Below, one piece after another: positions 42,757-64,000 of a DNA stretch of 64,000 bases (positions within the stretch are counted from its first letter, which is position 1; every line of letters starts with the position of its first letter). This stretch comes from Eubacteriales bacterium. GTDB taxonomy: Bacteria; Bacillota; Clostridia; Oscillospirales; CAG-382. The notes under the pieces are model-generated. The model had not been told where the DNA came from and did not search any database. It was given only the letters and a program-made list of their open reading frames with translations. The translations under genes were made by a program, and so were the position numbers. The stretch spans positions 1 through 64,000 of the forward strand of contig JAQWDK010000001.1 in the NCBI GenBank assembly GCA_028705495.1. The letters run 5' to 3'.

Positions 42757-42845
42757 GGAGGGTTATCGAAGTGGTCATAACGGGGCTGATTCGAAATCAG
42801 TTTGGGGGCAACCCCACGTGGGTTCGAATCCCACACCCTCCGCCA
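42757..42845 (+). tRNA. tRNA-Ser(CGA)
   Basis: An 89-nt cloverleaf: acceptor GGAGGGT/ACCCTCC, an anticodon loop TTCGAAA giving anticodon CGA (reads UCG), a long variable arm (TTTGGGGGCAACCCCACG), T arm GTGGG-TTCGAAT-CCCAC and an encoded CCA. The long variable arm is typical of tRNA-Ser. An integrase gene points at its 3' end. Confidence 0.95.
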
Positions 42846-42854
42846 ATTTTCCGG

Positions 42855-42894
42855 CTGCGGCTCGCCTAAAACGAAGGTGAGCCGCAGTTTTTTT
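42855..42894. terminator. strong terminator between tRNA-Ser and the integrase gene
   Basis: A 12-bp stem, CTGCGGCTCGCC (42855-42866) with GGTGAGCCGCAG (42876-42887), is followed by seven T on the plus strand. It ends the tRNA transcript and may also stop the converging integrase transcript. Confidence 0.85.
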
Positions 42895-42908
42895 ATTGTT
42901 AGGCAATC

Positions 42909-44078
42909 CTACATCACCCCGGAAAGCGCCGCCGAAAGGCCAAGCTCCATCGCCTGAGCTGAATCGATCTTGGAGTTGTAATCCAAGTGCGCGTAGATGT
43001 TCGCCGTGGTAGAAAAATCGCTGTGACCAAGCCATTCTTGAATTTGTTTCATGGGAACTCCGTTTGCGAGCAGCAGCGAGGCGCAACTGTGACGCAGGTC
43101 GTGAAAACGGATGCGGCGTAAATTGTTCTTTGCCAGCAATTCCGGGAATGTCTGCGTGATATAATTCGGCGTGATAAGCCCACCCATCGGGTTGACGCAG
43201 ATATATCCGATATATTGCTTGTCGTAGCTCTTTCCGCATAGGTCGATATAGACCTTTTGCTGTTCCTTCACCGCTATGAGTTTCCCTCGAATCGCCGGAA
43301 CAAGCGGCAGCGTCCGCATACTGGATTTCGTTTTGGTAGTGTCCTGCGCGATGGTATGGCGTTTGCCGTCCAACGTGTAAGATGTGACCGTGTGGCTGAT
43401 GGTCAGGGTGTTTCTTTTGAAATCAATCGCTTCCCATCGCAAACCGACCACCTCGCTGCGGCGAAGTCCATAAAATGCGCCAAGCAATATGGGGATTTCA
43501 AGGTATGTCCCACGGCTGGCTTCAAATAGTTGCTCCATTTCCGTACTGTCGTAGAAGCTTGCCTTAAACGGCTCTTTACGCGGTCGTTCCACTTTGTCAG
43601 CGGGATTCGCTACCAACACATCAATCTTCACAGCATACTTCAAAGCCCTGTGGATAACGGCGTGGTAGTGAATGACCGACGATGCTTTCACCCGTTTAAG
43701 CTGTTCGGTATAGAATGCTTGAATATCCTGCGGTTTAATCCCCGTGAGCGTAATATTTCGCTCCTCGAAATACGGAACAATCACCCCTTTTGTCATTTGG
43801 CGGTATGAAGCGTAGGTTGTTTGCGCTATGGTCGGTTTGGCGATTTCAAGCCAGTCAATCAGATAATCCGAAAAGAGCGTTTCGCTTTCTCTCGGCTCGG
43901 TTGTCGGCGGCACAAAATTGACTCTTGCATCGGCGAGCATCGCTTCCGCCTTTTTCTTGTTGCCTTTGATGGGCAAGCCCGTGGGCAACCATTTTTGTCT
44001 GCGTTTGCCCTTTTCATCCTGAAAATCAAGGACGATGTAATAGAGATTTTTCTTTTCCTGTAAGTGCCCAGCTACCAT
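42909..44078 (-). CDS. tyrosine recombinase/integrase
   Basis: The 389-residue protein has an N-terminal DNA-binding region (GHLQEKKNLYYIVLDFQD), a core-binding SAM-like domain and the catalytic domain with Arg in RRSEVVGLRW near residue 221, HDLRHSCAS near residue 327, LGHSDFSTTANIYAH with the nucleophile Tyr near residue 363. It catalyses integration at, and excision from, the adjacent tRNA-Ser site (inferred). Start: AAAGGAGG lies 8 nt before ATG 44078; longer in-frame starts lack such a site. Confidence 0.95.
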   Translation of the reverse strand: MVAGHLQEKKNLYYIVLDFQDEKGKRRQKWLPTGLPIKGNKKKAEAMLADARVNFVPPTTEPRESETLFSDYLIDWLEIAKPTIAQTTYASYRQMTKGVIVPYFEERNITLTGIKPQDIQAFYTEQLKRVKASSVIHYHAVIHRALKYAVKIDVLVANPADKVERPRKEPFKASFYDSTEMEQLFEASRGTYLEIPILLGAFYGLRRSEVVGLRWEAIDFKRNTLTISHTVTSYTLDGKRHTIAQDTTKTKSSMRTLPLVPAIRGKLIAVKEQQKVYIDLCGKSYDKQYIGYICVNPMGGLITPNYITQTFPELLAKNNLRRIRFHDLRHSCASLLLANGVPMKQIQEWLGHSDFSTTANIYAHLDYNSKIDSAQAMELGLSAALSGVM

Positions 44079-44114
44079 ATAAGAAGCCTCCTTTTGTTTG
44101 AATTTTTTTGTAAA

Positions 44115-44181
44115 TGCACCGAACACCTGCAATCACTACCCCTATATTGTATAAGGCAAGATCGCAGGTGTCGAATGTGCA
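44115..44181. repeat. long imperfect inverted repeat between integrase and excisionase genes
   Basis: Arms at 44115-44130 and 44164-44181 share ACACCTGC/GCAGGTGT as a perfect core and TGCAC/GTGCA at their outer ends. It may be a regulatory hairpin or a recombinase/excisionase binding site in the gap between the two genes. Confidence 0.45.
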
Positions 44182-49807: not shown

Positions 49808-52800
49808 CTATTTTTCAGTGGTCAAATCTCCCGCTTTTTTGTCCACAGAGAACATATAACCGAAACGGTAATTCCCTTCATGCGGGCGGCCGTCCGTATA
49901 TACTTCTGCGTGCCAATAGGCGTGCGGGTATGGGATTCCTACGCCATCTGCCAGTATTTTATCTCGTGTAGTGTAATATGCCGAACCGAGCGCGCCGTCG
50001 TATCCATCGGTGGTATATATTGCATACGCTGCGCTCTCTGTCGGAACATCATAATAATCATATCCCTCCGGCACAAGCGTATCCGCTTTGAAAAAGCGTC
50101 CGGCAAGGAAGTGGTTTTCGGAATCGACATCATTTCCGTTATGGTGCATCATCGAACAAGGTTCGGCGATGTCCGTTCCTTGTTCAACTGCCAACGCTTC
50201 CAATGCGGGCATATATTCGTCGCTTCGCGCCCATAAACTGTCCCATCCTTCATTTGTGCGTGAAGCGTTGATACCGATAAACCGCACTTTGCCTAATTTG
50301 ATGTATTTAAAACTATTACATACCAGTTTTTCTTTTGCCATACCTTCTGTCAGAATCCGCACGATTTCATCTGTAACTTTGGCGAACTCACGGATTTTCT
50401 GCACGATTTTTCCGCGCTTTTCCTTGTCTTGCAACACGCCCAGTGTTACATTGAAACCGCCTCCGAGAGCTTCCAAGTCCGTGCCGTTGTCGTTATTCCA
50501 CATAGCGCCGATGCGCTTGTAAAGGCGGCTGATTTCTTCCAAAAAGGTCATATCGGGATTGAGTTCCCGCGCTTTATCCAAAAATCCATAACAGCAGCTT
50601 CCATTGGTGGCGAGAACGCAAATAAAATTATTATACATTCCCCAACCGTCAAATTCTTCCGGTTTCATGCCGTCAAAATATCCGTTTTCGATATTAGCTG
50701 CCCACGCGCGGAAGGCCTCTGCTCCGAAATAATGGCCGTCTGTTTGAGTGGTTAATATTTTTGGCAGGTTTGCAACAGCATTGCGATAAATTTGTTTTAG
50801 ATTCTTTTGCTCTTTCTTTTCGCCTACAAAAAGCCAACCTTCGTTGTTCCCTTTATTAAGTATAGCTTTTTCGAGGCTTATTCGCTGTGGCTCGTTGTTG
50901 TCCCCGGAGATATATAATAAGGTCTGTCCGTTTTCTTCATAACCAACAAAAACACCGACTAAATTTTGGAACCAGGCGATTACCGGTATGTTCTTGTCTA
51001 TATAGCCTATCAAGGATTGCAGATACATTTCCTTGTTTTTACGCAAATCTTTACTCAAAACAAAACTGCTTGTATAACCGCATTTTTCAAAAACATCCTC
51101 CGCAAAAGAAATGTCCACCTTATCAATATAATAACTGCTGCGGGCATCTCCGCTCCAGTTTCCGCTTTTCGGGTAATGCTGCGTAAACACATCCCCAGTC
51201 AGCCCGGCAAAAAACATATAGGTATAATCCGGCTCACCTAAACATTCCATCACATATTTGGCACAGCCGTTGAACCAGTAATTTTCGCCGTGTTCGCTTG
51301 TGACAAGCCGGTGAATCGTGGGGATGATGTTGTTACTTTGCTTGGTAATCATGACAAGTCCTTCTTTCTTTATTTTGTTTTTAGGCGCGTATGCAAGCTG
51401 TGAAACCCGAATTTTACGGAAATATTTCATTCCTTGCCCGTTTGATCCGATAATGACAGGCGCGGCTTCTTCCCGGTTCATATCAAGCTCCATATACGGA
51501 AAATTTACGCCGCAATAGCGCAGTTCATCGTTTATGAATACAGCTAAATGCTTCGCGCCGATTATCCATGTCAAGTGGTTATATCCGTCAATTTCGATTG
51601 CTCCACGCCCCGGAAAGTTATAATAATCATGAAATATTGGTTGGTGGAATTGCAAAGCTTCTCCGGGAGAAATCGTCCAGTTGTTCATATTGATACCGAA
51701 CCTGTAACTCAATTCGTTGCCGTGGTATAAAATGATACTGCCCTCCGTGGCACCAAATCCGTAACGCGCTTTTTCGTCGATCCGAAACTCCACATCAACC
51801 CGAAATGGCAGTTTGACGCTTACATTCGTGTTCAAAACCCGTGTGCTAATCCAGCCCGTATATTCAATCTCACCGTTATCCAAAACCTTATAATGAGGGC
51901 TGTTAATGGGCGTTAGCTTGTCCAGAGGCACATCAATTTCTCGCAATATCGGGTTCGCAGCTTCGATTTCTTCAAGGGCGATTCCCGTTATCTCCTCTGG
52001 AGGGTCGAACAGAGCAGGGTCTGCCATGCGCTTTTTTACCGGAACGAGCAGGGAAACAAGCTCTCTTTTATCGTCCGGGGATATTAGGTTTTCAAGTAAT
52101 GTGGGGTGGCGCAACTCGCCGTCGTTTTGATAATCAATCTGATAATATTTGTTATCGTCAAAACTCTTTACAATGGAGCGGAATCGTTCGCCCAAATCCT
52201 CATCCAGATAAACATTTATCGACGCGAACAGCCCGCCGTCAAAAACAAAATCAAGGTATTCGCTGCCATTTTCAAAATCGTCCGGAACGCGTTGTATCAT
52301 TACATCTCTGGCTTCGGTTTGATATTCAAATCGCTCATGCCGTCCGGGGGCGGCTGTTCCAATGTTTTGCTGCTGCAACCAACGCCAAAATTTGTCCGTA
52401 TCCGAATTGTTCGGTTTCTCTTTCAAAAAAGAAGATACTACATGCATGGCGGGCAGGGATATGATTGCGGGGTCGGAGGATTTTGTAAGCCGCTCGCTTA
52501 TATCAGTTAATTCGTGATACGTAACCGGCTCTCGTTCCTCAATTAGCTCAATTTGCTTGTCCATTTCCTCATACAGCAGCGGCAGAGCGGATATTTTGGT
52601 TACACCGTTTTTCTGCATGGTCTGCAAAAACTCGCTTGTAATGCGTTTTAGCTCGGCAAGCGCGCCGATTTCGTCATCTATTGCGTGAATACGGTTGACG
52701 AAAGTTTCAACTACCACGCTCATGCTCTCGCTTTCGTAAATCCGCAGGATATCCTTGACAGGAATTTGCATTTTACGCAGCACCATGATTTGTTTTAAGC

Positions 52801-52960
52801 GTTCGATGTTCTCCATGTCATAAAAACGGTACTTCTCAAACGCAGGGCGAACGCTCTCAATCAACCCCACTTGCTCGTAATAACGCAGGCTTCTGGACGA
52901 CAATCCAAGCAGCGTTGTCAGGTCGGTAATTTTTGTGAGTGCATTGTCTATGCTATCCAT
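49808..52960 (-). CDS. giant MerR-family regulator fused to BtrH-like and GyrI-like domains
   Basis: At 1050 residues this is several times longer than usual MerR proteins. Residues 1-75 form the MerR helix-turn-helix (GLSSRSLRYYEQVGLIESVR), then a coiled coil, then a beta-rich region to about 530 with LamG-like repeats. From Met537 the sequence resembles a BtrH-N-like cysteine domain (NGCAKYVMECLGEP), and the last 180 residues form a GyrI-like ligand-binding domain (GKVRFIGINASRTNEGW). A sequence like a ribosome binding site, AAGAAGGAC, precedes Met537, so the gene looks like two neighbours fused by loss of a stop. It could sense, or inactivate, a small molecule. Confidence 0.75.
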   Translation of the reverse strand: MDSIDNALTKITDLTTLLGLSSRSLRYYEQVGLIESVRPAFEKYRFYDMENIERLKQIMVLRKMQIPVKDILRIYESESMSVVVETFVNRIHAIDDEIGALAELKRITSEFLQTMQKNGVTKISALPLLYEEMDKQIELIEEREPVTYHELTDISERLTKSSDPAIISLPAMHVVSSFLKEKPNNSDTDKFWRWLQQQNIGTAAPGRHERFEYQTEARDVMIQRVPDDFENGSEYLDFVFDGGLFASINVYLDEDLGERFRSIVKSFDDNKYYQIDYQNDGELRHPTLLENLISPDDKRELVSLLVPVKKRMADPALFDPPEEITGIALEEIEAANPILREIDVPLDKLTPINSPHYKVLDNGEIEYTGWISTRVLNTNVSVKLPFRVDVEFRIDEKARYGFGATEGSIILYHGNELSYRFGINMNNWTISPGEALQFHQPIFHDYYNFPGRGAIEIDGYNHLTWIIGAKHLAVFINDELRYCGVNFPYMELDMNREEAAPVIIGSNGQGMKYFRKIRVSQLAYAPKNKIKKEGLVMITKQSNNIIPTIHRLVTSEHGENYWFNGCAKYVMECLGEPDYTYMFFAGLTGDVFTQHYPKSGNWSGDARSSYYIDKVDISFAEDVFEKCGYTSSFVLSKDLRKNKEMYLQSLIGYIDKNIPVIAWFQNLVGVFVGYEENGQTLLYISGDNNEPQRISLEKAILNKGNNEGWLFVGEKKEQKNLKQIYRNAVANLPKILTTQTDGHYFGAEAFRAWAANIENGYFDGMKPEEFDGWGMYNNFICVLATNGSCCYGFLDKARELNPDMTFLEEISRLYKRIGAMWNNDNGTDLEALGGGFNVTLGVLQDKEKRGKIVQKIREFAKVTDEIVRILTEGMAKEKLVCNSFKYIKLGKVRFIGINASRTNEGWDSLWARSDEYMPALEALAVEQGTDIAEPCSMMHHNGNDVDSENHFLAGRFFKADTLVPEGYDYYDVPTESAAYAIYTTDGYDGALGSAYYTTRDKILADGVGIPYPHAYWHAEVYTDGRPHEGNYRFGYMFSVDKKAGDLTTEK

Positions 52961-54177: not shown

Positions 54178-55104
54178 TCAAGCGTAATTGTAACACTCTG
54201 ACCTAATATTTTTCGATATAAATCGGGCTTCGAAAGGTGTAAGATCGTTGTTGTAGGAATGCGGTCTGAGGTGGTTGTACCATAAAAATACATACTCCTC
54301 AGTCGCAGAATCAAGCTCCGTATCACTCCGAAAATTATGCTGGTATATTAACTCGCTCTTAAAGGTGTTAAAGTACCTTTCCATCGGAGCATTGTCATAC
54401 GGGCATCCAGCTTTACTCATGCTCTGAGTAACATTAACAGATTCACAAAACTCAGTAAAGGCTTTCGAGGTGTATTGAGAGCCTTGATCACTGTGTAAAA
54501 TCAAACCACCCTTTGGGATAGTCTGTGAGGAAAGAGCCTTTTTGAGTGTATTTATTGCTAAGTCAGCAGTCATTACTTTACTATTCAAGCTTGCAATCAC
54601 AGATCGGTCATAAAGGTCAATAATCGAGCAGTTGTAGCGTTTCTGACCATCTTCCAAAAACAGATATGTAAAATCCGTGCACCACTTTTGGTTAACCTTC
54701 TCTGCTTTGAAGTTTTGATTTAAGAGATCGGGGAAAACCTTATGAATATTTCCTTTAACATAACCAGGCTTCCTTCTCTTCAGTAGTGAAAATAGTTCAA
54801 GTTCTCTATTCATGTACTTATGCACTGTTGTTTTACTAAGGTGTATGTCTTTTCTGGATAGAAAAACCCTCATTTTTCGATGACCGAGCCGACCTTTGGT
54901 ATTATGGTAAATATCTTTGATCTGCTCAAGTATTACTTGCTTTCTGGCTTCAAAAACTGTTTTTCTTCTTTTAAGATAATTATAATATGCATTTGGACTG
55001 ATGCAAAGCCTTCTTAAAAGCCATCTAACACCGAAATATGTATGATTTTTCTCAATAAACCGATAAACCGCTAATCGATTTCCTTTGCAAAGAATGCCGC
55101 CGCT
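54178..55104 (-). CDS. IS3-family transposase, OrfB frame (expressed by -1 frameshift)
   Basis: The rve integrase domain has the DDE residues in CTDFTYL, LHSDQGSQYTS and NAPMERYFNTFKSELI. The frame is open without a stop from about 55104, where a run of seven A (minus strand, 55110-55104) in orfA can cause -1 slippage, as is standard for IS3 elements. The N-terminal part reads NHTYFGVRWLLRRLCISPNA and RLGHRKMRVFLSRKDIHLS. An internal ATG at 54873 is not the natural start. The protein appears intact. Confidence 0.88.
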   Translation of the reverse strand, partial: SGGILCKGNRLAVYRFIEKNHTYFGVRWLLRRLCISPNAYYNYLKRRKTVFEARKQVILEQIKDIYHNTKGRLGHRKMRVFLSRKDIHLSKTTVHKYMNRELELFSLLKRRKPGYVKGNIHKVFPDLLNQNFKAEKVNQKWCTDFTYLFLEDGQKRYNCSIIDLYDRSVIASLNSKVMTADLAINTLKKALSSQTIPKGGLILHSDQGSQYTSKAFTEFCESVNVTQSMSKAGCPYDNAPMERYFNTFKSELIYQHNFRSDTELDSATEEYVFLWYNHLRPHSYNNDLTPFEARFISKNIRSECYNYA

Positions 55105-55367
55105 TTTTTTAAGAACTCGTTCTCCTTTTTAGCTTCTTCGAGTTGCTTTCTAAGCTTTCGATTCTCCGACATTAAATCATATTCGTCTTTGCTCTGCGGG
55201 TTTACTTGGCATTCTTCACGGTATGTCTTTATCCAATTAGATACGCTGCCGTGGCTTATATTATATTCCTCAGCAAGGCTCTTGAGGGTTCGTCCTTCTT
55301 CAAGATGAAGGCAAACTATCCTCTTTTTGAACTCGTCTTCGTAATGTTTCTTTTTGTTTTGTTCCAT
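55071..55367 (-). CDS. IS3-family transposase, OrfA
   Basis: A 98-residue protein with an HTH (KSLAEEYNISHGSVSNWIKTY near residues 29-49) and a leucine-zipper-like coiled coil (LMSENRKLRKQLEEAKKENE). It ends in TAG at 55071-55073 shortly after the A7 slippery run. It binds the inverted repeats. Confidence 0.9.
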   Translation of the reverse strand: MEQNKKKHYEDEFKKRIVCLHLEEGRTLKSLAEEYNISHGSVSNWIKTYREECQVNPQSKDEYDLMSENRKLRKQLEEAKKENEFLKKAAAFFAKEID

Positions 55368-55484
55368 TGTATTTCTCCCTTATAGTTATTATACTATATT
55401 AGGGTAAGCTGTTACAACTCTATTATACCATGACAATATACTATGATACCACATTTTTCTTATCAGTCAAGTAAAATCGTAAAA

Positions 55485-55524
55485 AATAGGGCTATAGCAT
55501 TTATGCTATAGCCCTATTTTTTTT
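55485..55524. terminator. bidirectional terminator
   Basis: A perfect 16-bp stem (55485-55500 with 55503-55518) around a 2-nt loop. T8 follows on the plus strand and T6 on the minus strand. It separates the IS from the phage-like genes and ends the latter. Confidence 0.85.
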
Positions 55525-55615
55525 ACTTAGATATTTTTCAAGTGTTTAACTCTTTCCTACACACGAATTACATCTTGAAATACCTTGTTAATTGTTTGAT
55601 TATTTGATGTAATAA

Positions 55616-56560
55616 TTAGTTTTTTGTTATATAAGCCTCTAAGCCATCCGCCGAGACGTTGAACTCATAAGAGGAGTATGCTTCAACGGCAGAGGGAATT
55701 ATTACCTGCACCCCTTTGTATTTTTTCCCTGCAGGAAGAGTTACCGCCCCGCTACCAAGAGTAGAGTCTCCCATAATGACCAAAGTTCTATTGCAGCCCG
55801 AAGGTAGGGCGGTTATCCTAATGTCATAAGTCCCATTATAAAAAAACTTTCTTTTTATAAAGGCATGCGAACTTGTTAGGTCTACATAACAAATGGCTTG
55901 CCCGCCGTCCAAAGCTGTATAATCGGTAAATGTTACTTCTTGTTTAAGCGAAAGCATAAGCGTCCAGTCGGGGGAATCGTGAGGTGCGACATGGGCGTTG
56001 TCTACGTCTGCGACATACAGTGAGTTTTGCCAAGTAACCACATCTTTTGCGGCGTATGACACTTCGAGATTCCAAACGCCTCTATAAACAAGATTAAGCC
56101 CAGGGTCGCCTTTATCACCCTTGTCGCCTTTAATTGATATTGGTCTGAAATGAGCTGCATTTGTAGGAAGTGTACCGACGGGGGTTGTGTCGTTAAACGC
56201 CAAGTAGGTTAGCCCATTGTAGCTTACCATATCCCATCTTTTATACTGAATCGAAGAAACCCATACACCTCTGTTTTCAAAGATGTTTTTTAGATTATCC
56301 TCCACTTCTTCAAAATAAAATCTTTGAACTGCGACAATAGCATCTTTGATTTTATTGAGGTTGCCCGCACTCACTATCATCCTTTTTAAAATAGGATTCG
56401 CGTTAAGTATATTTGCCGCTGCCGATAAATCGCCACTTCCAACTGCTTCTTCGTACTGAGATAGCAAGGGCAGCGTACTTACATCAGGATCAATAAAATC
56501 CTCGAAATTATCAAGTTCTTTTGGGAACTTACTGTCTAGGTCTATATAAGGGATTGCCAT
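55616..56560 (-). CDS. phage tail fibre/baseplate-like protein with collagen-like patch
   Basis: The 314-residue protein has an N-terminal region of baseplate/appendage type (KFPKELDNFEDFIDPDVS), a repeat of the form WDMVSYNGLTYLAFND and WQNSLYVA, which resembles chitin-binding-type modules in tail fibres, a short collagen-like GDKGDKGDPG near residue 146 and a beta-rich end. GAAAGGTGG supports ATG 56560. It is likely a prophage remnant or tail-like particle; no lysis or capsid genes are present. Confidence 0.65.
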   Translation of the reverse strand: MAIPYIDLDSKFPKELDNFEDFIDPDVSTLPLLSQYEEAVGSGDLSAAANILNANPILKRMIVSAGNLNKIKDAIVAVQRFYFEEVEDNLKNIFENRGVWVSSIQYKRWDMVSYNGLTYLAFNDTTPVGTLPTNAAHFRPISIKGDKGDKGDPGLNLVYRGVWNLEVSYAAKDVVTWQNSLYVADVDNAHVAPHDSPDWTLMLSLKQEVTFTDYTALDGGQAICYVDLTSSHAFIKRKFFYNGTYDIRITALPSGCNRTLVIMGDSTLGSGAVTLPAGKKYKGVQVIIPSAVEAYSSYEFNVSADGLEAYITKN

Positions 56561-56573
56561 ATGCACCCACCTT

Positions 56574-57011
56574 TCATGTAAATGGATAGTCTGGATAGTA
56601 TGTTGTTAACGACACAGTGCAATCTCCCGAAGCGAAGGAAGTCGTTATGTTTTTGATTAAGTACTGTTTCTTTTCACCAGAACTGTTTGAAGTATATTCA
56701 ATTTTACGATTAACATCCAGCCAAGGAATGTATGCAAACGTCAAGGTAAGGCCATCGGTAAGTCTCGCGCTTTTATACAACTCGTGCCTACCTCGCTGCA
56801 TTGCCAAGTCCTCCGATGTTATGTTCTCGTAAACGCCACCATATAGCGGTTTTCTTATCTCACCAATTTTTTCTATGGTGTAAGGACTCTGTGGGTTTAC
56901 TTGATAATATATCGAAGAACACCCGTTCTCAATCTTGTCCAACTCCTTTTGTAAGGGATTTGGCTCTTGAGAGACAAGTTTAATTATTGAGTGTATTTGA
57001 TACATCCCCAT
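56574..57011 (-). CDS. phage tail protein fragment (DUF5048-like)
   Basis: A 145-residue frame ending in ARLTDGLTLTFAYIPWLDVNRK and SGDCTVSLTTYYPDYP, typical of the C-terminal part of a larger tail or baseplate protein. It has no good ribosome binding site and begins without the rest of that protein, so it is probably a 5'-truncated remnant. It lies 14 bp upstream of the tail-fibre-like gene, with the same orientation. Confidence 0.5.
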   Translation of the reverse strand: MGMYQIHSIIKLVSQEPNPLQKELDKIENGCSSIYYQVNPQSPYTIEKIGEIRKPLYGGVYENITSEDLAMQRGRHELYKSARLTDGLTLTFAYIPWLDVNRKIEYTSNSSGEKKQYLIKNITTSFASGDCTVSLTTYYPDYPFT

Positions 57012-57128
57012 ATAATAAAACTTACTGTTTTGAGATTTTAAAAGTCAAGTCCAAATTTGTTTCTAATTACGGGCAGTTGATTTTTCAATCGGCTGCAGTT
57101 TAATATTTTTTATATTTTGTTTTTCCTA

Positions 57129-57157
57129 TTGACAATTGTTTATAAGTACATTATAAT
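57129..57157 (+). promoter_or_regulatory. consensus sigma-A promoter, copy 1
   Basis: TTGACA at 57129-57134, a 17-nt spacer and TATAAT at 57152-57157, an exact match to consensus at both boxes. Confidence 0.85.
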
Positions 57158-57226
57158 GAAAATATACTTAGTTAATTCATTTAAGAAATTATTTTCAATT
57201 ATATTTTTTATATTTTGTTTTTCCTA

Positions 57227-57255
57227 TTGACAATTGTTTATAAGTACATTATAAT
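57227..57255 (+). promoter_or_regulatory. consensus sigma-A promoter, copy 2
   Basis: TTGACA at 57227-57232, a 17-nt spacer and TATAAT at 57250-57255. It is the downstream copy, about 100 bp from the hexosaminidase start. Confidence 0.85.
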
Positions 57256-57356
57256 GAAAATATACTTAGTTAATTCATTTAAGAAATTATTTTCAATTAT
57301 ATTTTTTACTCATTTAGTTAAGTCAATTAACAAATTAATTCTAAAGAGGAATGACC

Positions 57357-60266
57357 ATGAATATTAAAGACATTAATTTGAGTGTTTTACAAAATGTTGA
57401 GCCGAAATTTTCTAAAAATAACAAAAAATTAGTGATGCCGGAATGTCCTTTTCAAGGATTCAAAATTGAGATACATGGATCTGACAATACCCAAACTGTT
57501 GATTTGTGCGGCAACATTTACAGACCATTAACCGATACAGTAGTTAATATAATATACAAAGCGGTTAGTCTTAATGATAGTGCTATTTTTGTAAAAGCGG
57601 AATACAACACTCCTGTATTAATTAAAGGTGAGTATGAAAAAGAAGACGGAGACAATCTAAAGCCTGATGTTTTACCTTCGCTAAGAGAATGGAAAGGTGG
57701 CAACAGCTTATTTGTGTTGCCAGATCCAGCAGTTATTGTGATAAATGACAAAAATCTAAAAGAAACAGCCAATATGATAGCGGACTTTTTTGGAGATCTT
57801 TTGAAACTTAAAGTTGTTGTTGAAGAAAGTGATTCTGAGAGTGGAGCTATATTTCTAAATTTAACAGATAAAAACTCTGAGCTTGGCGATGAAGGGTATT
57901 ATCTAACAATAACAGATAGGGTTTTTATCAATTCAACCAGCATTAAAGGAATATTATATGGAGGGATATCTGCTTTACAAATAGCTTATCAAAGTAAAGA
58001 TAAACGCACAATACCCCAAGGGACTGCTCGCGATTACCCAAAATATCGTGTGCGATCGATAATGTTGGATGTCGCTAGAGCTTGGATACCCTTGAATTAC
58101 CTTATTGAAATGACAAAATACATGTCATATTTTAAAATCAACGATTTGCATCTTCACATAAATGACTGGGGAGCAAATGACTATGAGGCATTCAGGCTTG
58201 AAAGCACTTATGAGGGTTTAGCAGCTGATGATGGATTTTATACAAAAGATGAATACAGAGCTTATCAAAAGCTCGCATTAAAGTATGGGATAGAAATTTC
58301 TACCGAAATTGATACCCCGGGACACAGTAGATGTTTCAGGAAGGTTCAACCACCAATTCCAATGATTTCAGACACACTTCTTGATATCAAGCAACCTGAA
58401 GTTATTACATTTGTGAAAAAACTTATTGACGAATACATAACAGGGGATGACCCTGTATTTGCTACTCGGCTTATAGATATTGGTACTGACGAGTTCCCCC
58501 GTGAATATTCGAAAGAAATGCGAGTCTACTGTGATAAATTGATACGCCATATCAACGAAAGAGGAGCAAGAGCACAGTTATGGGCATCATTTGGTGGACC
58601 CGACGGATATAACGGCGAGACATCAGTATGCGGAAAAGCTAGAGCAAGTTACGCTGCACCTGGCATGCAAGATTATAATACGCTATTAGAATATGGTTTT
58701 GATGTTATAAACGCAATAATGTTTCCACTATACATTGTTCCCGGCGGAAATTGGAATTTTGCTGATTATTTAGATTATGAAAGCTTGTATGATACATGGG
58801 AAGCAAACTGGTTTGATACCTCAAATAAAGGATGTGCTTTACTTGGCGAACCAAAATTTTTAGGAGCGAAAGTTTGTCTGTGGAATGATCTTTATACTAC
58901 CAATAGCGGTTTCTCGATATTCGATATATTTGATAGATTAAAAAGCGGCATCGTGATATTATCAGAAAAAACTTGGAGTGGCGAAAAAGGAAAGAGTCAA
59001 TCGTCGAAAGATTTTGGTAACAAGGTAAGAAAATTGTGGAATCATGTACCTGGGGTAAACCCAGGACGATGGGTTTACTCTAAATCTGAAGTTATATGTT
59101 CTTATGATTTTACTTTAACTAAAGATAATAAGGCTATCGACAATTCTGGTAACAGATATGATGCAAATCTTGTTAACTGTAATGTATCAAGCAACTTGAT
59201 TAAGTTTGATAAAGTAGGATACATGTCACTACCTTTCAAAAGCATAGGATTTCCTTACACTGTTTCAATTGATTTGAAGTTAGATAAATATCAATTTGAA
59301 AATGTATCACTTTTCAAAGGAGAGGATGGAGAGTTTTTTATAAATATTGATGGTACTGGGAAATGTGGATTTATAAGAGAAAAATATAAATTTATTTTTA
59401 ATTGTCAGCTTCCAATCAATAAGCTTTTCAATTTGAAACTAAGCTGCAGTCATCGTGAAACACAGTTAATAATTGATAACACCTTTGTATATGATGCCAT
59501 AAATCAATTAACTCATACAAAAAAAGATTCATCGACTTTCGTCCTACCAGTAGAAAAAATAGGCCTTGGTATATGTGGCGAATTAGTTAAGTTAGTGATT
59601 GTCGATGAATGTACAGATTTTCATCATCTATTGGCAAATCGAAATTATGCCCTCAATTGTAAAGCATCAGCTTCTAGCTATCTTGTAGAGGATGGCAGAT
59701 TTACAGCAGATATGGCAGTTGATGGAGTTGTAAACCGTTCTTGTCAACTCCAATTCGCTCAAGGCCATGAGCAATGGCTTGAGTTAGACCTCGGAGAAGC
59801 AAGGGATATCAACAAATTTGTAATTACTTTTTCGGAGCATATACCTGAATACAAAATATACACTTCGATGACAGGCAAAGATAATGACTGGACAGAAGTT
59901 TATCACCTTACTGATGGAGAAGAAGGTATAGAAACTACTGATTTTATTGATATACCATTAACTAAGGCAAGATATGTAAAATACATACAGCTGAAAATGT
60001 GGTATGTTGAATCGCTTAATACATTCTACAGTGGCGGTATTGAAGAAGTCGAAGTATATGGTTTTAACAACGATTATTATAACAACCTTTTAAAGAAAGC
60101 TGATAACATCCTTCAAGATTCTCACGAAAATAATGAAGCAAATAAAAAACTAAGATTTGCTAAAGAAAAACTCAAAAAGTATCTAACGAACAAAAGGATC
60201 TATCAGGCAAACCTTGATCAATTAGCAGATGAATTAGGCAATATCATTAATTATAAAAGGTGGTGA
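57357..60266 (+). CDS. GH20 beta-N-acetylhexosaminidase-like protein with LamG-like and F5/8C domains
   Basis: The 969-residue protein has an N-terminal GH20b-like domain (residues about 100-220), a GH20 barrel with LDVARAWIPLNYLIEMTKYM, DLHLHINDWG and the catalytic pair Asp378-Glu379 in DIGTDEFP, a LamG-like sandwich (about 575-745) and an F5/8C (CBM32-type) module (about 755-905). Such enzymes remove terminal GlcNAc or GalNAc from host or microbial glycans. No signal peptide is visible, so it may act inside the cell on imported sugars. AAAGAGGA is well spaced for ATG 57357, not 57351. Confidence 0.85.
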   Translation: MNIKDINLSVLQNVEPKFSKNNKKLVMPECPFQGFKIEIHGSDNTQTVDLCGNIYRPLTDTVVNIIYKAVSLNDSAIFVKAEYNTPVLIKGEYEKEDGDNLKPDVLPSLREWKGGNSLFVLPDPAVIVINDKNLKETANMIADFFGDLLKLKVVVEESDSESGAIFLNLTDKNSELGDEGYYLTITDRVFINSTSIKGILYGGISALQIAYQSKDKRTIPQGTARDYPKYRVRSIMLDVARAWIPLNYLIEMTKYMSYFKINDLHLHINDWGANDYEAFRLESTYEGLAADDGFYTKDEYRAYQKLALKYGIEISTEIDTPGHSRCFRKVQPPIPMISDTLLDIKQPEVITFVKKLIDEYITGDDPVFATRLIDIGTDEFPREYSKEMRVYCDKLIRHINERGARAQLWASFGGPDGYNGETSVCGKARASYAAPGMQDYNTLLEYGFDVINAIMFPLYIVPGGNWNFADYLDYESLYDTWEANWFDTSNKGCALLGEPKFLGAKVCLWNDLYTTNSGFSIFDIFDRLKSGIVILSEKTWSGEKGKSQSSKDFGNKVRKLWNHVPGVNPGRWVYSKSEVICSYDFTLTKDNKAIDNSGNRYDANLVNCNVSSNLIKFDKVGYMSLPFKSIGFPYTVSIDLKLDKYQFENVSLFKGEDGEFFINIDGTGKCGFIREKYKFIFNCQLPINKLFNLKLSCSHRETQLIIDNTFVYDAINQLTHTKKDSSTFVLPVEKIGLGICGELVKLVIVDECTDFHHLLANRNYALNCKASASSYLVEDGRFTADMAVDGVVNRSCQLQFAQGHEQWLELDLGEARDINKFVITFSEHIPEYKIYTSMTGKDNDWTEVYHLTDGEEGIETTDFIDIPLTKARYVKYIQLKMWYVESLNTFYSGGIEEVEVYGFNNDYYNNLLKKADNILQDSHENNEANKKLRFAKEKLKKYLTNKRIYQANLDQLADELGNIINYKRW

Positions 60267-60271
60267 AATAT

Positions 60272-61690
60272 TTGTTTTTAAAAAATAAGCTGATGAAAAC
60301 ATTGACTTCCCTGCTGTTAGCAGTAACAGCATTGTTGGGTTTTGTCTCTTGTTCTAAAGACATAGATAAAATTATAGATTCTTCATCTTATTTAGAATCT
60401 GATTCGGATAATAACAACGTTCAGACGCCTGAAGGGGATTATCCGTTTGTAACAGGAACTTTCATTCAACCATTTGCTTTGGCTAATTTGAGTAAAGAAC
60501 GCACAACAACGCACCTACAAACATTGTTTGAAGTTGGCATTGACACTGTTATTTTACAATGGTCAGCTGTTACACCATATGGGTCCTTCCAAGAAGCGTA
60601 CTATCCATCAAAAAACGCAAAAGTAAGCCATACAGAAAATTTTAATGAAAATAGTACTGAATTGATCGAAAATCTGTTAAGTGCTGCAGAGGAACTTGGC
60701 ATAAAAGTTTTTATAGGATTAAACAACGCTGATGAATGGTGGAGTTTTGGACCAAGTGATGCTGAATGGAATGAAAAGCAAGCTCAGACTGGTATAATCA
60801 TTGCACAAGAAATTTATGACCTTTATAAATCAAAATACCCTGCTGCACTACATGGGTGGTATTACGTTTGGGAAATGTCAAACGGTAGTATTATAAAATG
60901 GCCAAAGGAGAATGGTAAGTTACTTAATTTATATCTTGATAACTTAGCAGAGATTGACAGCACAATGCCAATTATGCTCTCTCCTTTTATTTGCGAAGTT
61001 GATGGAAGTGCTGAGTTAACAGGCAATAAACTAAAAGAAATGTTAGAAATAGCGAACTTTAGAGAGGGAGATATATATTGTTGTCAAGATTCGGTCGGAG
61101 CTGGTTTTATGAGTTTGCAAAAGCTTGATGAATATTTTTCATCGATAAAAGATGCTGTAAAAACTAAACCAGGTCTCGAATTTTGGGCTAATTGTGAGAA
61201 CTTCGTACACGGTGAAAAATTTGCTTCTGCCCCAATTGACAGATTTATATCTCAAATGAAAATTGCTTCAGAGTATGTTACAGGTTTGGTAACGTTTTCA
61301 TATTCACATTATTACTCACCGGATTTAGGTTCAAGCGAAGTTTATCATGAAGTTTATAAGCAGTATTATAAAACGGGAACAATCCCTGCTTCAGATAAAC
61401 CTGGGACACCGATAATAGTAACTAACAAAATCGATGGTCGCGATGCAGTGTCTGTTTCATTAGAAATAATGCAAAGTACGTACGGAGTTTCTTCTGTCAA
61501 CCTTTATATTAATGATGAACTAATAAATACCTTAACAAATAAAAGTATTAAGAGCAATAAAACGATGAAGTCAAGCATATATGTCGATTTAAGCAAATAT
61601 GAAGAAGGAGAAACGGTGGTAATTACAGCAATTGCTTATGATTTAAACAACAATTGCTCCCTAACAGGAACGTCCGAATACAAGAAATAA
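60272..61690 (+). CDS. DUF4434-like lipoprotein, first copy
   Basis: The protein starts with a lipoprotein signal (FLKNKLMKTLTSLLLAVTAL, then LGFVSC with the lipid-bearing Cys). A TIM-barrel-like DUF4434 domain follows: GIDTVILQWSAVTPYGSFQEAYYPS, IKVFIGLNNADEWW, GWYYVWEMSNGSI and WANCENF. The last 90 residues form an Ig-like beta domain. DUF4434 proteins are thought to be glycan-active but lack proven activity. TTG 60272 has AGGTGG upstream; ATG 60293 is an alternative. It follows the hexosaminidase directly. Confidence 0.8.
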   Translation: MFLKNKLMKTLTSLLLAVTALLGFVSCSKDIDKIIDSSSYLESDSDNNNVQTPEGDYPFVTGTFIQPFALANLSKERTTTHLQTLFEVGIDTVILQWSAVTPYGSFQEAYYPSKNAKVSHTENFNENSTELIENLLSAAEELGIKVFIGLNNADEWWSFGPSDAEWNEKQAQTGIIIAQEIYDLYKSKYPAALHGWYYVWEMSNGSIIKWPKENGKLLNLYLDNLAEIDSTMPIMLSPFICEVDGSAELTGNKLKEMLEIANFREGDIYCCQDSVGAGFMSLQKLDEYFSSIKDAVKTKPGLEFWANCENFVHGEKFASAPIDRFISQMKIASEYVTGLVTFSYSHYYSPDLGSSEVYHEVYKQYYKTGTIPASDKPGTPIIVTNKIDGRDAVSVSLEIMQSTYGVSSVNLYINDELINTLTNKSIKSNKTMKSSIYVDLSKYEEGETVVITAIAYDLNNNCSLTGTSEYKK

Positions 61691-61707
61691 TGAGGTGTGC
61701 AATTATA

Positions 61708-63108
61708 ATGAAACCTCAACGATTAATTTATCGAAGTAAAGCAGTCTCTCTCTTATTATTTATTCTACTTTTAATATCTATATTGCCTTTTTGCAGCTGC
61801 GAAAAAACATATAACTGTGATTATTCGGATAAAAACCCCGAAAGTAAATCTTTAAACGATGGATATTCGCGCGTTCATGCAACAACATTAAGCTTTGACA
61901 ATATTGTTACCTTTTCCAAAGCCACTTGGGAAAAGTATATGCAAGATTTAATCGATGTAGGAATAGATACAATAATACTTACTGAAACAGCTTTTACACC
62001 TTATGGTAGCTTTAGCAAAGTTTTTTACCCTTCTGAAATTGCTGAATCAAACAAAAGAGAGTCTTATGAAAAAAAAGAGACAATGGTTGAGAATTTACTT
62101 AAAAATGCTGAAATATTTAACATAAAAGTATTTATTGGGTTAAACAATGCCGATGAGTGGTCGATCATAAACGCATCGAACAGTATATGGAATCATACGC
62201 AATCAGAAATTGCTAAAGGAATTGCAAGAGAACTCAAAGAATTATATAAAGAGAAATATCACGTTTCATTTCATGGCTGGTATATTCCCTGGGTCATGTC
62301 AAACTCTTATATAATCTATCAACCTGAAAAAAGCAGTGAGCTGTTGAATTTATATATAGAAGCATTAAATATAGTTGACTCTGAAATGCCAATACTTTTT
62401 GCTACAACACTTAACAACGATTTTACAGCTTCGAGAACAGCCAAAGCGATGAACAGCGTACTAAATAAGGTAAAATATAATGATAAAGACATCTACTGTT
62501 GTATCGATGCAATTGGAACTGGAACATTACGAATTGAAAGTCTTGATTACTATTTCCACGAAATGTATGCTGCGATATCAGCCAACCATACGATAAAATT
62601 TTGGGCTGGATGTGAGAATTTTAATTACACAACAGGTAAAGGTGCTGTGGTAGATTTCTACATAGATCAGCTAAATATAGCAACAAAATATACAGAAAAA
62701 ATTGTCGCATATAGTTATTCGAAATATTATGCTCCAACAATATGCAATATACCGTCGTTCAATCAAATTTACAAAGAATATTATAGTACAGGGTTTGTTG
62801 CAGAAACTATCGCACCTGACACTCCAACTATAACTGCAACTGAAATTGCTGGTCGTAATGCGATTTCAATATCTGTTACTGTGTTTCAACAAACATATTA
62901 TGTTGATAAAATTGAACTATATGCAAATGATGAGCTTATAAAAGTATTTAGTAACCAGACACGTTACTTGTCATTTTCTGAATACCAAGCAAGCTATTTT
63001 AAAAGTCTTGATAATATAAAATCAGGAAGTGAAATAGTGTATAAAGCAATAGCTTATGATATTGGGGGAAATGCATCAGAAAGCAGTTTATTTAAATATG
63101 TGAAATAA
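61708..63108 (+). CDS. DUF4434-like lipoprotein, second copy
   Basis: A 466-residue paralogue with the same order of motifs (GIDTIILTETAFTPYGSFSKVF, KVFIGLNNADEW, WAGCENF) and a similar C-terminal beta domain. The signal region ends in LPFCSC; FCSC is a weak lipobox, so lipidation is less sure than in the first copy. TGAGGTG lies 10 nt before ATG 61708. The duplicate next to copy one suggests substrate diversification. Confidence 0.78.
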   Translation: MKPQRLIYRSKAVSLLLFILLLISILPFCSCEKTYNCDYSDKNPESKSLNDGYSRVHATTLSFDNIVTFSKATWEKYMQDLIDVGIDTIILTETAFTPYGSFSKVFYPSEIAESNKRESYEKKETMVENLLKNAEIFNIKVFIGLNNADEWSIINASNSIWNHTQSEIAKGIARELKELYKEKYHVSFHGWYIPWVMSNSYIIYQPEKSSELLNLYIEALNIVDSEMPILFATTLNNDFTASRTAKAMNSVLNKVKYNDKDIYCCIDAIGTGTLRIESLDYYFHEMYAAISANHTIKFWAGCENFNYTTGKGAVVDFYIDQLNIATKYTEKIVAYSYSKYYAPTICNIPSFNQIYKEYYSTGFVAETIAPDTPTITATEIAGRNAISISVTVFQQTYYVDKIELYANDELIKVFSNQTRYLSFSEYQASYFKSLDNIKSGSEIVYKAIAYDIGGNASESSLFKYVK

Positions 63109-63140: not shown

Positions 63141-64000
63141 ATGAAAACAACAACACGTTTACTGTCGGGATTACTAATACTATTAATTTTAGCTATTCCG
63201 CTAACATCATGTGTACGCAGTGGAACAGATTCATCTAATGGCGGGCAAACATCAAACGAAGAAAGCTCAATAACAAGCACTGACCCTCTCTCATTTCTTC
63301 CCGACATTAACTACAATGGTGAAGAAATCGTTATCCTTTGTGAAAACGAAAGCACTGGTAAAGCAATTTATGCTGAGGAGCTTGACAGCACGCTCATCAA
63401 CGATGCAGTATTCGAAAGAAACAATATGGTTCAAAATAAGTTGGGTGTAAAAATAAAAACAGTTTATGGTGATTCATCCGTTTCATGCCTTGATTTATTA
63501 AGAAACAATGTTTCTGGAGGGAATGATTTATATGATGTAGTGATGCCATATATGCCTGCTGCGGCTACTATGGCAATTGAAAGGAATTTATATGATTTAA
63601 ATGAAGTACCCGAGTTAAATTTGTCTGCAGCTTACTGGGACAAAAATGCAAATGAGGGATTATCTATCGGAAATAAACTGTACTTTACAGTTGGTGCTAT
63701 GACTTATTCTGATAAAGCTCTGACACTTACTTACATCTTTAACAAGGATGTAGTTAGAGGAAATAATCTTGATGATCCGTTTACACTCGTTAAAAATGGC
63801 GACTGGACAATAGATAAAATGCTTGAGATGTCAAGGGTAATTACATATGACAGTACAGGCGACGGTACAATGAATTTCATGGATACCTGGGGTTTATACA
63901 TGAACAGCAGCTGTGCAAGCGTTTATTTTCTGGCAGCGGATGAAAAAATAACTTCAAAAGACCAATACGATTTACCGCTGCTTTCAATTTATACGACACG
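63141..64000 (+). CDS. ABC-type extracellular solute-binding lipoprotein, cut by window end
   Basis: The frame is open from ATG 63141 (TTGGAGG upstream) to the edge, 286 codons so far. It begins with a lipoprotein signal ending LTSC and continues as a family 1 solute-binding protein: INDAVFERNNMVQNKLGVKIK, NDLYDVVMPYMPAAATMA, then FNKDVVRGNNLDDPFTLVKNGDWTIDKMLEM in segments. It would capture sugars or oligosaccharides for an ABC importer encoded beyond the window. The three upstream genes are the likely source of its ligand. Confidence 0.85.
   Translation, partial: MKTTTRLLSGLLILLILAIPLTSCVRSGTDSSNGGQTSNEESSITSTDPLSFLPDINYNGEEIVILCENESTGKAIYAEELDSTLINDAVFERNNMVQNKLGVKIKTVYGDSSVSCLDLLRNNVSGGNDLYDVVMPYMPAAATMAIERNLYDLNEVPELNLSAAYWDKNANEGLSIGNKLYFTVGAMTYSDKALTLTYIFNKDVVRGNNLDDPFTLVKNGDWTIDKMLEMSRVITYDSTGDGTMNFMDTWGLYMNSSCASVYFLAADEKITSKDQYDLPLLSIYTT

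Follow-up and report, generated by a model that had tools for sequence, protein, structure and literature searches.

A perfect 98-bp tandem duplication copies a predicted promoter and a putative operator ahead of a hexosaminidase operon

A perfect 98-bp tandem duplication lies upstream of a beta-N-acetylhexosaminidase operon in the window, that is, the whole 64,000-nucleotide stretch of DNA that was analysed. Each copy carries a consensus promoter sequence and, directly after the predicted start site, a 25-bp motif which we read as a putative operator of the ROK repressor encoded in the same operon. On balance, we favour the view that the duplication was born by slippage, that it doubled a promoter-operator cassette under ROK control, and that it raised the induced output of the operon. 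The duplication itself is real but belongs to an ordinary mutation type, a known sort of event.

Two repeat searches, one of them with TRF, placed the duplication at 57103-57308 (2 x 98 + 10 bp; Table 1), in agreement with the earlier note on this DNA, which had claimed a perfect 98-bp tandem copy here. It is the sole TRF row in the window. On the 313-kb contig, to which the tandem-duplication statistics apply, three perfect tandem duplications were found (98, 39 and 20 bp), of which this one is the longest, and a perfect copy of this length is far beyond chance. The duplicated segment is intergenic, situated between the GH20 hexosaminidase ORF and, on its 5' side, a terminator-like hairpin that may shield the operon from upstream transcription. 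The earlier note had taken the identity of the copies to mean a recent event or strong selection. Applied to 0 differences in 98 bp, the rule of three bounds the divergence at about 3%, and close copies can be homogenised; the identity leans weakly in the proposed direction, and alone it does not prove either recency or selection.

Table 1. Features of the duplicated region and of the downstream operon (window positions unless marked as contig positions)
Feature	Position	Strand	Remarks
Terminator-like hairpin	57073..57096	+	just 5' of duplication; 1 found vs 0.1 expected
98-bp unit, copy 1	57103..57200	+	100% identical to copy 2
98-bp unit, copy 2	57201..57298	+	100% identical to copy 1
Copy junction			reads ...TTTTCAATT / ATATTTTTTATATTTTG...
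Partial third copy (10 bp)	57299..57308	+	ATATTTTTTA; same as 57103-57112 and 57201-57210
Predicted promoter P1	57129..57157	+	TTGACA-N17-TATAAT; orthologous single promoter in sister
Predicted promoter P2	57227..57255	+	TTGACA-N17-TATAAT
Putative operator O1	57168..57192	+	TTAGTTAATTCATTTAAGAAATTAT
Putative operator O2	57266..57290	+	identical to O1
Putative operator O3	57314..57338	+	TTAGTTAAGTCAATTAACAAATTAA; outside duplication, just before Shine-Dalgarno; 21/25 to O1/O2
Shine-Dalgarno	57343..57349	+	AAAGAGG, for ATG 57357
GH20 beta-N-acetylhexosaminidase with F5/8 type C domain	57357..60266	+	first gene; ORF opens 57351
DUF4434 protein	60260..61690	+	
DUF4434 protein, paralogue	61654..63108	+	
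Lipoprotein resembling sugar-ABC substrate-binding protein	63141..64000	+	runs past window to contig 64643
F5/8C protein	contig 64684-65430		
Second GH20	contig 65437-67968		
ROK repressor	contig 67955-69274		last operon gene; PF00480 E=2e-36, PF13412 E=3.9e-5

The claim that two identical promoters stand ahead of the hexosaminidase operon also holds. Both copies contain TTGACA and TATAAT within a spacing of 16-18, upstream of a gene, and P1 and P2 are predicted to be consensus sigma-A promoters. This promoter form is meaningful in this genome: TTGACA-N16-18-TATAAT has 103 matches in the 2.55 Mb, versus 2 for the reversed pattern.

The operon downstream encodes, in this order, a GH20 enzyme, two DUF4434 proteins, a lipoprotein, an F5/8C protein, a second GH20 enzyme and the ROK repressor. 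The last of these combines a ROK domain with an N-terminal winged helix-turn-helix (wHTH), and its PDB matches include the Mlc, NagC-like and Lmo0178 repressors. The part of the lipoprotein inside the window had no Pfam match. The DUF4434 proteins are likely glycoside-hydrolase-like partners of the hexosaminidases; the paralogue pair (60260-63108) lies between the two GH20 genes both here and in the sister species described below. The stretch that carries the operon is AT-rich (about 31-38% GC, versus 42-49% on most flanking sequence). It is bordered on the left by an IS3 transposase and phage-tail remnants and on the right by IS30-type and serine-recombinase genes, and because of this composition and these borders the operon was probably acquired horizontally. 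The IS3-type transposase pieces and phage-tail remnants (DUF5048, tail-fibre-like) adjoin the operon at 54178-57011 on the minus strand. Farther upstream, an ORF of 1050 amino acids (49808-52960, minus strand) fuses a MerR-type DNA-binding domain to a long uncharacterised C-terminal part, and a tRNA followed by a tyrosine integrase (42757-44132) makes up the kind of junction typical of integrated elements.

Clostridiales bacterium GWF2_38_85 (L039), the sister species, has all seven genes in unchanged order and with 51-75% protein identity, and the operon includes the ROK repressor with wHTH in both species. The sister GH20 protein begins at the residue equivalent to ATG 57357, which is the likely start of the first gene here, rather than ATG 57351. 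Upstream of its operon, the sister has a single sigma-A promoter, TTGACA-N17-TACAAT, whose 25/36 match to P2 was reached by 2 of 1000 shuffles; no second promoter copy and no direct repeat longer than 10 bp were found in this upstream region. Since the sister has a single promoter, the duplication is most simply explained as derived in the lineage of the window, probably from a single-copy ancestor, in a comparison of two genomes of the genus, one per species. By eye, a decayed IS30-like transposase fragment (L039 5520-5640) seems to part the sister promoter from its GH20 gene, and may have shifted or weakened expression of the sister operon. In the sister, too, phage-tail genes directly precede this operon, on the opposite strand (L039 2741-4104), but the phage-tail regions beside the operon in the two species yielded no proteins homologous to each other.

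A mode of formation is suggested by the ends of the duplicated unit, a detail that the earlier note had overlooked. The single-copy unit has the 10-bp sequence ATATTTTTTA at either end; this sequence starts at 57103, 57201 and 57299. Among random position pairs from the same island, a matching extension of at least 10 bases has a frequency of 2.5e-5, and we regard the extension as the mark that a duplication between short direct repeats leaves behind. High-identity head-to-tail copies, microhomology at the ends and a single copy in a relative, the features that define such events, are all found at this locus. The tandem duplication would have arisen spontaneously, by template slippage between a pair of 10-bp repeats spaced about 98 bp apart. 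Extra matching bases also accompany the 39-bp duplication (9 bases, at 106184) and the 20-bp duplication (4 bases, at 229256) of the contig. The former (106184-106270) amounts to 13 codons within an ORF, and the latter sits at the end of an ORF.

Reading the repeat as a mobile element or an att site was considered and is unsupported: for the tRNA/integrase junction at 42.7-44.1 kb, the contig contains no repeat of at least 16 bp. The 98-bp unit has no second place in the genome, gave only short AT-rich matches in 59 relatives, and was not found in IMG/VR or among plasmids. The segment 54100-57356 had no phage match.

Along with the promoter, the duplication copied the 25-bp motif, which begins 10 bp after the -10 hexamer in each unit (O1, O2). 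A third version (O3) agrees with O1 to a degree that 6 of 3000 shuffles reached. The sister likewise carries two versions of the motif, one after its promoter (site A, 39 bp after the -10 instead of 10 bp) and one before its Shine-Dalgarno sequence. O3 matches the sister site at the same place in 21 of 25 positions, which 0 of 1000 shuffles reached; the match of O1 alone to the sister does not exceed chance, as 96 of 1000 shuffles reached it. With at most one mismatch allowed, the genome has three occurrences of the 17-mer core of the motif, all at this locus. A position weight matrix scored the window sites at 26.4, 26.4 and 29.9, the sister sites at 26.5 and 28.6 and all others on the contigs at 15 or less, a ranking that is partly circular, as the matrix was built from the very sites ranked. 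Since the operon ends in a gene for a ROK repressor, we read O1-O3 as putative operators of this protein. At an E-value threshold of 1e-40, ROK orthologues among 394 genomes of the order were found in the sister only, and the operator reading draws on two species.

With both elements copied, the layout becomes P1-O1-P2-O2-O3-SD-GH20, and each promoter would have a putative ROK operator a few bases past its predicted start site, near 57164 for P1 and near 57262 for P2. In the absence of the inducing sugar, the ROK repressor would occupy the operators and block both promoters. Upon its release both would be active and would yield more mRNA than the one promoter of the ancestor, and repression would be preserved as the operators were copied along with the promoters. 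The earlier note had recognised the doubling of the promoter and missed the duplicated putative operator, which alters the predicted effect. The repeat is further predicted to delete, and occasionally to expand, at the raised rate that tandem repeats of about 100 bp typically show. In our analysis the duplication probably increases expression and should be readily lost; tuning of expression through copy-number change, as suggested in the earlier note, is plausible and would fit the known instability of repeats of this length.

The weak point of the operator assignment is palindromy. ROK operators are palindromic as a rule, and only 6 of 10 arm pairs are kept in O1 and O3 and 7 of 10 in the sister. 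The motif could instead be a conserved 5' untranslated or AT-rich stretch from an older duplication, with the ROK protein binding elsewhere. The region of O1-O3 is very AT-rich, and O3 and its sister counterpart do occupy equivalent leader positions just before the Shine-Dalgarno sequence, as this alternative would have it. Against it, the motif is repeated within both the window locus and the sister locus and is specific to the operon in the genome. The leader RNAs did not fold better than shuffled sequences and no Rfam match was found at the duplication, so an RNA role is not indicated. We consider this alternative possible but doubtful; it is compatible with our reading of the duplication and would alter only the content of the unit. 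Somewhat less probable, in our judgement, is a neutral, transient duplication produced by slippage, one that leaves expression essentially unchanged and was caught before its deletion, either because the gene-proximal P2 does the work or because transcription from P1 is blocked. If recent, the copies could be identical without any selection, and the 39-bp and 20-bp duplications on the contig are similar events without obvious purpose. It speaks faintly against neutrality that the only case of about 100 bp in 313 kb hit the promoter-operator region of a catabolic operon, and that a perfect promoter was retained in both copies.

It is improbable that the duplication is an assembly artefact, with one copy or another number in the real genome and a repeated overlap left by the assembler or scaffolder. 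The assembly is a draft of 63 contigs, and the 108-bp repeat run exceeds many k-mer sizes, so copy number could be misjudged. An unmerged overlap would, however, repeat exactly without extension, and the low chance frequency of the extra 10-bp match counts against a blunt join. The duplication is also well inside the 313-kb contig, and short-read graphs collapse tandem repeats more often than they create them, which is another argument against an artefact. Least probable of all is an evolved contingency locus, in which selection keeps the repeat and changes in copy number switch or grade expression in the population. Promoter-proximal tandem repeats do switch or grade expression in some bacteria, and repeats of about 100 bp are unstable in E. 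coli (PMC8378479), but there are only two copies here, and the single copy in the sister gives no sign of a maintained array. We hold it equally improbable that the cassette acts as a reversible expression dial, its copy number shifting by slippage and promoters and repressor sites being added together. If true, induced output would scale, with repression kept, in a naturally occurring glycan-foraging operon.

Slippage-born doubling of a ROK-controlled cassette, the reading that we prefer, would make the locus a clean natural case of regulatory evolution, in which a small tandem duplication copies a promoter and a putative operator as one module. The sister offers an ancestor-like single-copy locus for comparison. 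Output and repression upon doubling of a whole regulated promoter could thus be studied in a simple, testable case.

Among known systems, the closest parallel is the xyl operon of B. subtilis, where XylR, also a ROK protein, recognises the operator xylO, TTAGTTTGTT-N5-AACAAACTAA (PMC12034463). O3 shares 16 of 25 positions with the 25-bp xylO, and most of these belong to the outer arms. In both systems a ROK repressor is linked to a sugar-catabolic operon and more than one operator, putative in our case, belongs to one promoter; tandem overlapping xyl operators are named in the title of Dahl 1994 (cited in PMC9104551). Here, by contrast, the motif is weakly palindromic, the putative operators are separate rather than overlapping, the whole promoter-operator unit is duplicated, and the operon serves N-acetylhexosamine glycans instead of xylose. 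The NagR regulon of Bifidobacterium, in which a ROK protein controls the use of GlcNAc-containing glycans through palindromic operators overlapping promoters (PMC9599254), resembles our case in that a ROK repressor (here putative) presides over GlcNAc-glycan use. It differs in that we deal with one local operon, with operators that are predicted to lie just past the start site.

For the duplication itself, a 36-bp duplication in the pbp4 promoter region of S. aureus is among the mutations associated with raised expression (PMC9769611). It is likewise a short duplication upstream of a gene, but was selected in the laboratory and lies 290 bp upstream, whereas the present one comprises a whole promoter and a putative operator in a naturally occurring genome. 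In E. coli, tandem repeats of 101 bp are deleted at high frequency independently of RecA (PMC8378479). That repeat was engineered into tetA on a plasmid and ours is natural, yet the lengths are nearly equal; slippage predicts frequent loss, and since repeats of about 100 bp delete often in E. coli without RecA, loss of the duplication should be common.
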